From Planctomycetota bacterium (GTDB lineage Bacteria > Planctomycetota > Phycisphaerae > FEN-1346), in the NCBI GenBank assembly GCA_026387035.1, contig JAPLMM010000227.1:1-45907 (forward strand): DNA of 45,907 nucleotides, written 5' to 3'. The notes beneath the pieces were generated by a model. It ran no database searches. It was not told the DNA's origin and saw only the letters and a program-made list of their open reading frames with translations. A program made the position numbers and the translations under genes. Shown piece after piece: positions 41,458 to 45,907 of the stretch; the first letter of the stretch is position 1, and each line of letters opens with the position of its first letter.

Positions 41458-42681
41458 ATGGCTACGTACCGATACCAACTGAAGCGAAACGACAGCCAGG
41501 TTGTCACGGGAGTCATGAAGGCCGACAGCCTCGTGTTGGCCACGCAGCAGGTGCGCGAACTCGGCGGGACGATCCTGGACCTGATACGGATCGGTGAGGA
41601 GGAGGTGGCCCGGAAAGGCTTGCTGGGCAGCATCCAGTTCGGCCAGCGGGTCGGGTCGAAGGAAATTCTGGCGTTTACAAGCCAGTTGGCGGTGATGTCG
41701 AAGGCCGGCATCGGTCTGACGACGGCGCTGGAAAGCATCGGGGAACAGGTGAAGAACCCCAAGATGGGTCAGATCATCCGGACGCTGAAGCGCGACATTG
41801 AAGGGGGACGGCAGTTTTCCGAGACTCTGCCCCGTTTTCCGAAGATCTTCTCGCTGCTCTACGTGAACATGGTGCGGGCGAGCGAGTTGGCGGGTTCGTT
41901 TGGGCACATGCTCGAGCGCATCTCGGAATACCTGACCCAGCAGATTGAGACACGCCGCCAGGTCAAAGGCGCCATGATTTACCCGGCGATCATCCTCATC
42001 CTGGCCATGGTGACGGTGGTGTTCATGCTGACGTTCGTCCTGCCGCGGTTCGCGCCCCTCTTCAAGGGACGCGAAGAGATCTTGCCGATGCCGACCAAGA
42101 TACTCATGGCGTTGAGCAGTTCATTGACCAATTATTGGTACGTCTACCTGCTCTCGGTCGGCGCGCTTGCGGGAGGGTTCATCTACTTTTTGAGAACGGA
42201 ACTCGGCCGCGAGTGGTGGGACGGCGCGAAACTCAAGATTCCGATCCTGAAGGGCCTGTGCCACGCCCTGTACCTGTCGCGCGGACTGCGGACGATGGGC
42301 GAACTGGTGAATGCGGGCGTGCCGATGCTCGATACGATTGCCATCACGGCGGAGGTTTCGGGCAACGTGCATTATGCGCGAGTGTGGCGGCGGGTCCACG
42401 CCGCGGTGCGCAAGGGACAGCGCATCGCGCCAACGCTGTCGCGCAGCCCGCTGATTCCCGCCAGTGTGGCCCAGATGATCGGGGCGGGCGAAGAGACCGG
42501 CTCGCTAGCCGAGATCCTGAATGACGTCAGCGCGTTTTACGATCGGGAGTTGAAGGCAACCATTAAAACAGTGACGTCCGCCATTGAGCCGCTCATGATC
42601 GTTTTGATGGGTGGAATTGTGGCCTTTATTGCATCCGCGATCCTCTTGCCCATCTTCAAGATGTCCCAGTTGGTGAAATAG
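41458..42681 (+). CDS. pilC: inner-membrane platform protein PilC (GspF family)
   Basis: A 407-residue membrane protein with two copies of the GspF cytoplasmic helical domain, each followed by membrane helices. The first is 'ILAFTSQLAVMSKAGIGLT' with 'VNMVRASELAGSFGHML', then helices near 170-195 and 220-245. The second is 'RTMGELVNAGVPMLDTI' with 'QMIGAGEETGSLAEIL', then a final helix (about 378-400, 'MIVLMGGIVAFIASAILLPI'). It is the platform on which PilB and PilT turn. Confidence 0.9.
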   Translation: MATYRYQLKRNDSQVVTGVMKADSLVLATQQVRELGGTILDLIRIGEEEVARKGLLGSIQFGQRVGSKEILAFTSQLAVMSKAGIGLTTALESIGEQVKNPKMGQIIRTLKRDIEGGRQFSETLPRFPKIFSLLYVNMVRASELAGSFGHMLERISEYLTQQIETRRQVKGAMIYPAIILILAMVTVVFMLTFVLPRFAPLFKGREEILPMPTKILMALSSSLTNYWYVYLLSVGALAGGFIYFLRTELGREWWDGAKLKIPILKGLCHALYLSRGLRTMGELVNAGVPMLDTIAITAEVSGNVHYARVWRRVHAAVRKGQRIAPTLSRSPLIPASVAQMIGAGEETGSLAEILNDVSAFYDRELKATIKTVTSAIEPLMIVLMGGIVAFIASAILLPIFKMSQLVK

Positions 42682-42683
42682 CC

Positions 42684-42827
42684 ATGACGCGCGCAAAAAC
42701 GCATGAGTCCGGGAACCGCCGGAAAGCCTTCACGCTCGCGGAAGTGCTTGTCTGCTGCGTGCTCGTGGTTCTCGGTTTTGTTGCCTCCGTGGCGGCGTTC
42801 GGTCACGAGTCCGTCGTCACGCATTGA
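42684..42827 (+). pseudogene. truncated minor prepilin (copy of the 43453 gene)
   Basis: A 47-codon frame beginning two bases after pilC. It has a prepilin leader and cleavage site (KA|FTLAEVL) and a hydrophobic helix ending 'VASVAAFGHESVVTH', then a stop. The complete gene at 43453 reads 'LAVVAAFGHDSVVAEQ' at the same place and continues for 100 more residues. This is a cut-off duplicate. It could still be made as a short membrane peptide. Confidence 0.65.
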
Positions 42828-42850
42828 GAGGTCCCAAGGGCGGACGTCCC

Positions 42851-43101
42851 ATGCGGAATCGGCGACGGAACGGCAGGGCGGTTTCGAGGGGTTCCGCCCT
42901 GCCCCACCGAACGCGTGCTTTCACCCTGGCGGAAGTGCTCATTTCGCTCGCCCTGATGGCGCTGCCGGACGATCGTGGTGAGCGTGGCGGGTGACGTGAC
43001 GCATACGGGAACCAACCTTGCAAATCCGGCTGGTGCTGGCCGGGGAACAGGCGATGGCAGAAACCGTTATCACGGCGACGCCGCGCAAAGAGTTCTTCTG
43101 A
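42851..43101 (+). pseudogene. decayed minor prepilin with internal deletion (copy of the 45362 gene type)
   Basis: It starts as a prepilin ('RTRAFTLAEVLISLALMAL') and then shifts frame; the original frame stops at 42994. The next frame gives 'TIVVSVAGDVTHTG', and a third gives the end 'MAETVITATPRKEFF' with a stop at 43099-43101. The final words match the end of the gene at 45362 ('NITVTPRKVLF'). Most of the globular domain is missing. It lies between pilC and the intact minor pilins. Confidence 0.65.
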
Positions 43102-43452
43102 ATCCCCGCAATGGCGTTAAGATAAGCCCCCAATACCCTTCGGAAGGTGATTCGGACCCGGCGCAGATCGGGCTTGGCGCTGCCTTGCGCCCCGGTTAGC
43201 TGGGGTGCGTCGTCGCACGAAACCGCCTCAAATCCCCTTAACTTAATGCCATTGCTGAATCCCTGCGTATGCGGCGGTTGGTTTTCCTTGCGAAAATGGC
43301 GCCTGACTTGCAAGGCGCGGGGGAAGGCCGAAGCCACCAGCCGCGCGTAAGTGCCGAATGTATAAGGTCTTACGTGCCTCCGGCCGGAGTTCCTCCCCTC
43401 GTGCTTGCCAGGCGGTCGTGGCGCGTTAGGCTTGAAGGTGGAAAGGGGCTCT
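43102..43452. other. spacer without a gene
   Basis: About 350 bases between the decayed prepilins and the intact minor pilin. I see no gene. The base composition is less even than in the flanking genes, which suits decayed coding sequence. Confidence 0.45.
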
Positions 43453-43896
43453 ATGGTGACTCGACACACTGGTGGCGGGGCGGGCGCGAGGGGGTTTACC
43501 CTCGTCGAGGTGCTGGTCTCGGCCATAATCATGGCCATCGGTTTTCTGGCCGTGGTCGCCGCGTTCGGGCATGATTCCGTCGTGGCCGAGCAAGGCAGCG
43601 ACGTGGCAACGGCCACATACCTGGCGGCCGAGATTCGCGACCTGGCCCTGCGGATGGATTTCGCAGACGTGCTGGCCCTGGACGGGGAGCACTATGCCCC
43701 TGACACGGACTGGGCCCAATATCTGACCGTCACGCCTGTTTCCGTGGCCGACCTGAACGATGACGAGGACATAGACGCCGAGACCGCCAAGGCGGTTCGG
43801 CTGATGGTGGAAGTCCGCCACCACGGAACGGCCGTGGTGACGCAGACGTCTTACGTGTTCAAGATGGAAGGGATCCTATTCACGGACGGCGGCTGA
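43453..43896 (+). CDS. minor prepilin (PilV/GspI-like)
   Basis: A 147-residue prepilin. A leader ends in G (GARG|FTLVEVLVSAII), with Glu at position +5 of the mature protein, which is needed for N-methylation and assembly. A long hydrophobic helix follows, then a short mixed domain with 'YLAAEIRDLALRMDF' and an acidic middle ('DLNDDEDIDAE'). GAAAGGGG is upstream. It is a minor pseudopilin, not a major pilin, judging by its place and small domain. A prepilin peptidase is needed, but its gene is not here. Confidence 0.8.
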   Translation: MVTRHTGGGAGARGFTLVEVLVSAIIMAIGFLAVVAAFGHDSVVAEQGSDVATATYLAAEIRDLALRMDFADVLALDGEHYAPDTDWAQYLTVTPVSVADLNDDEDIDAETAKAVRLMVEVRHHGTAVVTQTSYVFKMEGILFTDGG

Positions 43897-43945: not shown

Positions 43946-45358
43946 ATGAAACGACTCACATCTTTACGACGGGGCACTCGCCGTGGCGTCGCGCTGGTGG
44001 TCACGATGATTTTCCTGGCACTCTTCGCCTGCCTGGCGGTGGCGATTGCCACGACGTCCGACACCAACCTGGCCGTGGCGCGCAACCGCATCGCCTCGCA
44101 GCAGGCGTCGGCGCTGGCCGAGACCGGCATCCAGTTGATTCAGCGCAACCTCGGCGGCGTCAGCCTTTCCAGCGACAGCAGCAGCGCGTCGGCCCTGTAC
44201 GAAGCCATCGCCGAAAAACTCGAGATCCTGTGGGAGTCTTCGACCATGGTTGATGACGCCGGTGTTTCCTGGGACGACGCCGGCGTTACCGTGCCCATCA
44301 CGCTGGACGACGCGCGCGGCAAAATCGACCTCCAGATCGCCGTCAGCGACCTGATCGGCACCAACCCCAACACGGTCACGATTACCAGCACAGGGTCCTG
44401 TGGCAACGCGTCGCGAACCGCCCGCTACAACATGATGGTGCAGCAAGGCCAGACGGCGCTGTCGCTGTACGGCGTCTCAAGCAAGTCCGCCGTCCGGCTG
44501 ACCGGCCACGGCCGCATCCAGGGCCTCAACAACAACGCCGAAGGCAGCGTTCTGGCAGCCACGTACACCACCAGCCCCGCCATCCGCCTGAGCGGCAACG
44601 CCAGCATCACCGGCGATGCCAAGATCAGTAACCCGGACGCCCGCATCCAGACCAACGGCCAAGCTACCATTGGAGGCAGCCAGAGCGTCGGCGTCGGGGA
44701 ACCGGAATGGCCCGTCGTGGACCAGAGCATCTTCCGCCCTTACGCCACCAACCTCCGGACCAGTGGGGCCTCCGGAGACGTTACCCTGTCCAACATCCGG
44801 ATTCCCGCCGGAACCAACCCGACGTTTTCCGGAAAAGCCACCCTCAACGGCATCGTGTACGTCGAATCGCCCAACATAGTGACGTTTTCCGGCAATTGTA
44901 CACTGGCCGGACTCATCGTTTGCGAGCAACCCTCCGTGGATAACCTGAACGCCAACAAAGTGACCTTCTCCGGCAATGCAAGCCTTTCGGCGGTCGTTCC
45001 GGACGGGTCGCAGTATGACGGGCTGCGCGACTTGACAGGATCGGCGGTCTTAGCCCCCGGCTACGGCGTCAAGTTCAGCGGCCAATCGAACGCCGTCGGC
45101 GGATGCATGGTGGCCAGCGAGTTTGAGTTCACGGGCCAGGCCCTCACCGGCAAGAAGAAAAAGAATGAGGACGACGATTCGGACGAAGCGCCCACGTTCA
45201 CCGCGATTCGCGGCGGGATCATCAACTTGCGCGATTCCGGTTTTAAGGTCGCCGGCAAGGCGACGGTGACTATCGATCGCAGCAACCTGAACGATCACCC
45301 GGCCGGCCTGACCCGTTCCTACAAACTGGCTTGCATCTCGGGATCCTATGCGGAGTAA
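43946..45358 (+). CDS. PilX-like pilus protein with repetitive beta domain
   Basis: 470 residues. The N-terminus (about 13-55: 'RGVALVVTMIFLALFACLAV', 'QQASALAETGIQ') is the PilX_N type found in minor-pilin operons. The rest, from about residue 184, is built on a motif with the pattern [F/L/V]-[S/T]-G-x-A/C/S-[T/S]-[L/I] that recurs about nine times (for example 'LSGNASI', 'FSGKATL', 'FSGNCTL', 'FSGNASL'). That suggests a beta-helix or bactofilin-like stack. A Lys run followed by an Asp/Glu-rich run (KKKKNEDDDSDE) interrupts it near residue 405. It lies between two minor pilins. Confidence 0.75.
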   Translation: MKRLTSLRRGTRRGVALVVTMIFLALFACLAVAIATTSDTNLAVARNRIASQQASALAETGIQLIQRNLGGVSLSSDSSSASALYEAIAEKLEILWESSTMVDDAGVSWDDAGVTVPITLDDARGKIDLQIAVSDLIGTNPNTVTITSTGSCGNASRTARYNMMVQQGQTALSLYGVSSKSAVRLTGHGRIQGLNNNAEGSVLAATYTTSPAIRLSGNASITGDAKISNPDARIQTNGQATIGGSQSVGVGEPEWPVVDQSIFRPYATNLRTSGASGDVTLSNIRIPAGTNPTFSGKATLNGIVYVESPNIVTFSGNCTLAGLIVCEQPSVDNLNANKVTFSGNASLSAVVPDGSQYDGLRDLTGSAVLAPGYGVKFSGQSNAVGGCMVASEFEFTGQALTGKKKKNEDDDSDEAPTFTAIRGGIINLRDSGFKVAGKATVTIDRSNLNDHPAGLTRSYKLACISGSYAE

Positions 45359-45361
45359 CCG

Positions 45362-45868
45362 ATGAAGGCTTTTCATCACAGACCGGGCTTCACCTTGCCG
45401 GAAATACTTCTGGCGATGGCCCTTATGGCCCTCATCATGGCCGCCGCCGCCGCCGGCATCCATGCCGCCAACACCTCGTACACCTACAACTCCGAGAAAA
45501 CGGAACTGGTGGCCAAGGCGTGCGGCGTATTGGACCGGATCGCCCGCGACATCCGCCGGGCCACGGACTTTGAAATCCTGGACGACGAAATCCTGGTCGA
45601 CGTGCAAAGCCTTCGCATCATGCTGCCTGATGGCACGCAGCATACTTATACATGGGATGGCACGGACCGCGGCGACATCACGTTTGTGAAGACCGAAAGC
45701 GACAACAGCGAAAGCGATCCCGAGCGCTTAATAAAGGGAGACGTAACGTCTTTCACCCCCGAGCAACCCACCGGCAGCCAGTCTTGCCACGTCCAGGTTT
45801 CGCTAAAGGGAGACTATGCCACGGTCAGCAAAAACATCACGGTCACGCCGCGCAAGGTTCTATTCTGA
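45362..45868 (+). CDS. minor prepilin (GspJ/PilW-like)
   Basis: A 168-residue prepilin. The cleavage site is G|FTLPEILLAMALMAL, with Glu at +5. A helix continues to about residue 35, and a beta-rich domain follows ('LDRIARDIRRATDFEILDDE', 'SLRIMLPDGTQHTYTWDG', and a last strand 'NITVTPRKVLF'). 'DRIARDIRRA' is typical of the GspJ/PilW group. The ATG is three bases after the PilX-like gene's stop, so they are cotranscribed. The operon may run on beyond the window. Confidence 0.8.
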   Translation: MKAFHHRPGFTLPEILLAMALMALIMAAAAAGIHAANTSYTYNSEKTELVAKACGVLDRIARDIRRATDFEILDDEILVDVQSLRIMLPDGTQHTYTWDGTDRGDITFVKTESDNSESDPERLIKGDVTSFTPEQPTGSQSCHVQVSLKGDYATVSKNITVTPRKVLF

Positions 45869-45907
45869 CCGCTGCAAAATGCGTTAGAACTGCCGGAGAA
45901 ACCGTAC

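Follow-up and report, generated by a model that had tools for sequence, protein, structure and literature searches.

Why does the pil operon of this uncultured Planctomycetota bacterium (class Phycisphaerae) carry pieces of pilin genes between pilC and an intact set of minor pilin genes? We addressed this question in the window, the whole stretch of 45,907 nucleotides analysed here. It comprises all of contig C227, one of the 317 contigs that make up a genome of 2,545,619 bases. Based on sequence comparison, we consider it likely that the stretch at 42684-43101 is the non-functional remnant of a once complete minor-pilin set (A-X-B) at its ancestral place behind pilC, an old and diverged set that was lost. 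The finding is a genuine, modest relic of an ordinary kind of gene decay.

The pil operon and its intact minor-pilin set

The gene order in the operon is pilM, pilN, pilO, a gene weakly matching T2SSB, pilB, pilT, pilC, the remains, and intact A, X and B, where pilB and pilT were named from gene order and the T2SSE domain. The pilC product matches Pfam T2SSF (9.8e-59) and, under the curated cut-offs, the NCBIfam GspF/PilC models. It is 70-75% identical to that of three family members, and the ten best matches listed come from Phycisphaerae (51-55% identity; records closest to the window genome may be absent). The stretch 42684-43101 is single-copy in the genome. A promoter scan of 42650-43480 found none, and the same interval contains two terminator-like sites, with 1.2 expected. 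The features of the locus are:

41458-42681, + strand: pilC (GspF/PilC family), the last intact gene before the remains
42684-42827, + strand: A', the opening 47 codons of a minor pilin gene (GspI/PilV-like), then TGA; remainder lost
42839-42901, + strand: X' (probable), 12 upstream bases, the start codon (42851) and roughly 17 codons from a PilX/GspK-like gene, in fusion with B'
42905-42964, + strand: N-terminal piece of B', comprising the leader, the cleavage motif (FTLAE) and a portion of the hydrophobic helix
42972-43011, + strand: possible middle piece of B' (IVVSVAGDVTHTGT; GDVT)
43012-43101, + strand: C-terminal piece of B', the end of a GspJ/PilW-like gene (its last 29 codons with the stop), out of frame with the N-terminal piece
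43109-43254, no strand assigned: 146-bp miniature transposon, 43098-43265 with its target repeats
43453-43896, + strand: intact A, GspI/PilV-like, 147 aa
43946-45358, + strand: intact X, PilX/GspK-like, 470 aa
45362-45868, + strand: intact B, GspJ/PilW-like by predicted fold, 168 aa

Intact A scores 34.7 bits against the curated PilV model (TIGR02523, 2.2e-8), under its cut-off of 52.2. Its AlphaFold model (27 sequences, mean pLDDT 89.5) is closest by VIA-align to GspI-type chains (Z 8.7, rmsd 2.2, 103 aligned). Rows 1-6 and 8 are GspI-containing pseudopilin entries (Z 6.7-8.7, where values under 8 may reflect a common arrangement and the GspI chain was read from its length and letter), row 7 is the pilin TTHA1218, and the next unrelated row has Z 5.4. 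For the model of intact B (23 sequences, mean pLDDT 93.3), rows 1-9 are TTHA1219 or GspJ-containing entries (XcpW/EpsJ-type chains) at Z 9.8-12.0, the best being TTHA1219 (Z 12.0), with a chain of the XcpW/XcpV complex at Z 11.5; the minor pilin PilB of S. sanguinis occupies row 10 (8.5) and the next unrelated row scores 5.3. Foldseek alone gave no match at E 0.001 for the A and B models. Intact X has a Pfam PilX_N domain (25.8 bits, cut-off 25.5) and matches the curated NCBIfam GspK model at 1.7e-7 (31.1 bits, cut-off 130).

By the predicted folds of A and B and the domain of X, the intact set is a trio of the GspI-K-J or PilV-X-W type. It resembles the GspI-GspJ-GspK and PilV-PilW-PilX tip complexes in those folds and in the PilX_N and weak GspK matches of X, and is unlike them in that A and X score below the curated PilV and GspK cut-offs. 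Its place at the pilus tip is inferred by analogy with these families; the tip complex named in the original prediction holds to the extent that, by predicted fold, A and B resemble GspI and GspJ partners.

Remnants of a second set behind pilC

The stretch 42684-43101 contains the remnants of A and B on the same strand and in the order of the intact genes (43453, 43946, 45362), each of them cut. A' starts 2 nt past the pilC stop, and intact A genes of three family members occupy the same site, 5, 9 and 6 nt after the end of the pilC match. Against the 43453 protein, A' has a 36-residue match of 44.3 bits, and against A of G004, G001 and G005 it scores 49.3, 50.1 and 48.1 bits, compared with a median of 23.1, a 95% level of 28.5 and a maximum of 31.2 bits in a shuffle control (100 shuffled regions, 13 queries). 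Its N_methyl score of 20.6 bits is slightly below the Pfam cut-off of 21.2. A search of 61 genomes at E 0.001 found matches to A' in four, all of one family: A' itself, A of its own genome, and the A genes behind pilC in G001, G005 and G004. The latter rank first (E 1.3e-10 to 1.3e-9) and own-genome A last (8.4e-9).

The N-terminal piece of B' scores above the Pfam cut-off for N_methyl and is 74% identical to B of G001 across 19 aa. This piece was identified by its motif and place, because its score alone (31.2 bits to B of G001, 29.6 to G005, 26.6 to intact B, 25.0 to G004) lies within the shuffle range, the G001 match just equalling the shuffle maximum. At E 0.01 its matches were B of G001, B of G005 and another locus in G033; own-genome B was absent among them. 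The C-terminal stretch 43012-43098 ends exactly at the stop and scores 26.9 bits to B of G001, 25.8 to G004, 22.7 to intact B and 19.2 to G005. None of 150 random stretches (110 nt, + strand, first 41 kb of the window) reached 26.9 bits, the highest being 17.3. The possible middle piece, seen by eye, has a weak, non-significant likeness to intact B (13.5-14.2 bits).

The open reading frame starting at 42851, which contains the N-terminal piece of B', stops after 47 codons. Its first 17 codons score 35 against X leaders, best with G001 and G005, a value reached by 1.1% of composition shuffles; against B leaders the best local score is 16, reached by 35%. Among 789 control ATGs (other stop-free ATG sites of the window, both strands), none reached its 17-codon amino-acid score against X starts and one reached its 12-nt upstream-DNA score against X start sites, although the X likeness was noticed first and tested afterwards, on only 17 codons. 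A DNA alignment of X' without anchoring was not significant, with 27% of shuffles reaching its score. Since the start of the frame resembles X leaders and not B leaders, it is probably an X'-B' fusion, so that an X start remnant would probably lie between those of A and B and the relic set would read A'-X'-B'.

The original prediction had described a cut-off copy of the start of the 43453 gene, then a shifted, internally deleted copy of both ends of the 45362 gene, in the order of the intact set and with the PilX-like gene missing. The A copy is borne out by a score well above every shuffle, the B copy by its C-terminus against the controls and its N-terminus by motif, and the order by A' preceding B' on the + strand. 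The PilX-like gene, however, is probably not wholly missing. At least three deletions would have been needed, from the interior of A' to about the X' start, from the interior of X' to the B' leader, and within B'; together with the frame change, about 2 kb would have been lost.

Similar relics were searched for in the gap behind pilC at six loci. At E 0.001 none was found in L038, L049, L127, L039 or L155, and the gap of L164 proved to hold an intact X that the motif-based scan had missed. A laxer search of the L038 gap without composition correction yielded matches dispersed over the two strands, of which the strongest (40 bits) was antisense; this gap holds a small antisense ORF and an antisense gene, which we take to encode oligoendopeptidase F.

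The stubs might be kept for use, either as short pilin-like peptides or as a sequence store for recombination. A' could still be made via coupling to pilC, and it retains the cleavage motif and hydrophobic helix. B', however, breaks off within its helix (ALMALPDDRGERGG stop), and the variable domains needed for a store are missing. Neither the three family members nor the five other gaps contain such a relic behind pilC, and we regard this explanation as scarcely credible. In Neisseria, the pilS silent cassettes lack the conserved start and keep the variable parts. The window remains are alike in being incomplete pilin copies near an intact pilin gene, and unlike in having retained the start and lost the variable part.

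A miniature transposon at the B' stop

A small transposon has landed at the B' stop. It has terminal inverted repeats (CAATGGCRTTAAGWTAAG) and is flanked by 11-bp target repeats (CTGAATCCC(C/T)G) at 43098-43108 and 43255-43265, which differ at one base; the left repeat includes the B' stop. Four further copies, some partial, occur in the genome at 73-86% identity:

C72, 2755-2898: further copy of the miniature transposon
C29, 7875-8024: further copy
C226, 5024-5091: further copy
C21, 7410-7533: further copy

Target repeats are visible by eye also at the C72 and C21 copies, and the transposon stretch folds better than 200 shuffles (z -3.49). With terminal inverted repeats, a target duplication and several copies, the element is a miniature inverted-repeat transposon, presumably linked to the IS4 family. 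The eight matches to the terminal inverted repeat in the genome include no pair with the spacing of a full-length parent element.

The broken set could in principle be an assembly or sequencing artefact, or a strain chimera, as the genome is metagenome-derived, consists of many contigs and is apparently strain-mixed, contig C297 overlapping the window at 98% identity. Error is, however, an unlikely source of deletions totalling about 2 kb, a changed reading frame and a transposon flanked by target repeats. Moreover, the stretch occurs once in the genome and the transposon family is present elsewhere, and we consider an artefact very improbable.

Age of the split between the remains and the intact set

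The remains (SET1), the intact set of the window (WIN) and the sets of three family members from other genera were compared over 78 aligned residues (33 of A, 16 + 29 of B). Identical residues with the remains number 39 in the intact set, compared with 45 in G004, 43 in G005 and 41 in G001, so that the remains are not most similar to the adjacent set; the intact set and G004 share 47. The neighbour was the best match of the remains, ties included, in 2.9% of 10,000 column resamples. In the best tree the remains join G001 (83/82) and the intact set joins G004 (82/83), both without firm support. A tree that unites the remains with their neighbour falls 6.67 log units behind (AU p 0.040, a weak test on 78 residues that was named after the similarity had been seen; decay adds noise). 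Joining the remains with G004 or G005 is rejected in neither case (p 0.076 and 0.124), which leaves their place within the family unsettled. For A alone with outgroups, joining remains and neighbour gave p 0.042.

At codon positions 1 and 2, A' and B' are identical to the intact set at 113/156 sites, compared with 32/78 at position 3 (p 3e-6), which indicates past coding constraint on what are now collinear, same-strand remains, present beyond chance and disrupted by stops, deletions and frame changes. Third positions of the remains are identical to those of G004, G001 and G005 at 31, 32 and 24 of 78 sites. In outline, over these 78 residues, the distance between remnant and intact set thus appears comparable to that between sets of different genera, with past purifying selection. 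Since third positions differ as they do between genera while the other positions are conserved, both sets seem to have been constrained for about as long as the genera have been separate, with the breakage apparently coming later.

These comparisons bear on the idea that the set was duplicated in tandem only recently in this lineage and that the first copy then decayed. Such an event would leave adjacent copies in the same order, as found here, and lineage-specific tandem copies of X do occur in L034, L043 and L051. However, each of the three other genera has more residues in common with the remains than the neighbouring set has, third positions of the remains differ like those between genera and the AU test speaks against joining the two, all of which makes a recent duplication improbable. 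The duplication and replacement originally predicted therefore stands as far as a decayed second A-X-B minor-pilin set is concerned, and not as a simple duplicate of the neighbouring one. The sequences would be better explained if the set had been duplicated long ago, or a diverged one had arrived, and the upstream set had then been lost.

A rapidly evolving intact set could give the false impression of an old split. The branch of intact X is 0.51 in the window, compared with 0.32 in G004 and 0.37 in G001, and in the X tree the window lies outside the pair of G004 and G001 (AU p 0.012 against WIN+G004, 0.032 against WIN+G001). This position and the long branch, together with the place of the remains at the ancestral site, would also be expected if the intact A-X-B set had been transferred from another lineage and displaced the native upstream set. 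However, in the core pilB-pilT-pilC tree the window likewise branches outside the other three, with modest support (80/84; joining it with G004 is not rejected, p 0.37), and as both trees agree in this, vertical descent of X is an adequate account. The best matches of intact A and X are family members (54% and 53%), and third-position G+C of A, X and B (0.80, 0.81 and 0.75) is like that of pilC (0.81). A transfer, which is a narrower form of the preferred explanation and overlaps with it in probability, is thus unlikely, if less so than a recent duplication.

Minor-pilin sets in related genomes

The family comprises six genomes including that of the window. Four carry this pilC at E 1e-100, and it was not found at this threshold in two further genomes, which are 74-75% complete. 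In the three other members with this pilC, intact A lies directly behind pilC and one A-X-B set follows; none has two full sets, and in G005 (L034) X is doubled within the single set.

We extended the comparison to 100 loci, of which those with pilC under 45% identity were excluded. Among the remaining 67 loci (at least three contigs counted twice: L041/L130, L042/L131 and L038/L136), the P-X-P pattern occurs in 34 and two full sets in two, L040 and L045. The others show different patterns, some of them scan or short-contig artefacts, as pilins were named by motif, which misses some genes and misorders stop-to-stop ORFs (giving patterns such as XPP). Relatives with two full sets, which the original prediction had proposed to look for, thus exist, all outside the family. 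These loci (L040 in G030 and L045 in G049, other Phycisphaerae) are similar to the inferred ancestral arrangement in having a tandem P-X-P-P-X-P order behind pilC. Unlike the window, they retain open reading frames in both sets, and their genomes belong to another family.

In a tree of X (rows L041, L125 and L157 omitted; 8 of 19 inner branches open), the two X genes of L045 fall in far clades, and the second pairs with the only X of L038 (100/100), a G055 locus in which antisense genes separate the set from pilC, 2.8 kb away. Both X genes of L040 sit on very long branches. Tandem doubling of X behind pilC was found in L034 (G005), L039 (G045), L043 (G015) and L051 (G007); the copies are sisters in L034, L043 and L051 and belong to far clades in L039. 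From the far-clade X pairs of L045 and L039, and as judged by tree position, diverged minor-pilin copies coexist within this class.

A possible history of the two sets

Decay of the upstream set is plain in the DNA itself, and we consider it most likely that two sets coexisted in this lineage, much as in L045. Two diverged sets may have stood side by side for long, or one may have arrived from a relative, and they could have served as alternative priming or tip complexes on one pilus machine. If either set was able to prime the pilus, the upstream set would have been dispensable; it would have decayed recently by deletions, leaving the downstream set to supply the tip.

There is precedent for such redundancy. 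A study on Myxococcus xanthus (PMC7541494) reports that paralogous minor-pilin clusters serve one pilus machine, that their redundancy is known, and that cluster_1 or cluster_3 alone is enough. As described there, those clusters comprise PilY1 and four minor pilins and are intact, whereas here the two sets adjoin and one is dead. Among the titles and abstract openings considered, no report of a decayed minor-pilin set in Planctomycetota was found.

More tentatively, two deeply diverged full tip-complex sets may have been kept next to each other on a single pilus machine through the radiation of the family, each lineage dropping one, so that the tip was exchanged as a block and the machine retained. 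We hold this to be conceivable but on balance doubtful. The window would then represent a lineage shortly after the drop, and block exchange would account for L038, which has only the second-type set, and L045, which has both types.

If the old split is true, the type IV pilus tip of Phycisphaerae would evolve by the keeping or dropping of whole sets while the assembly machine stays constant. Tip choice would then be linked to a change in surface, partner or DNA uptake, with relics of this type marking when each switch occurred. If not, the remains are one more pseudogene set whose main use is correct annotation: the two 47-codon 'prepilin' ORFs here are not to be annotated as genes.

The contig end and other pilin genes in the genome

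Contig C297 (L090) overlaps the window near its end, at 45269-45904, with 98% identity. Within B the two differ at 12 codons, seven of them with a residue change, and the 93 bases preceding B (the end of X) are identical. The difference in this minor pilin is probably strain-level variation. We take C297 to be a strain variant, which would account for the end of the window at this point. Beyond the overlap, C297 carries opposite-strand genes read by eye as pheS, rplT, infC and thrS. The N-methylation pilin motif has 23 matches genome-wide at E 1 or better, those of the window and C297 counted, and forms several clusters, with matches also on contigs C4, C59, C139 and others of G000.
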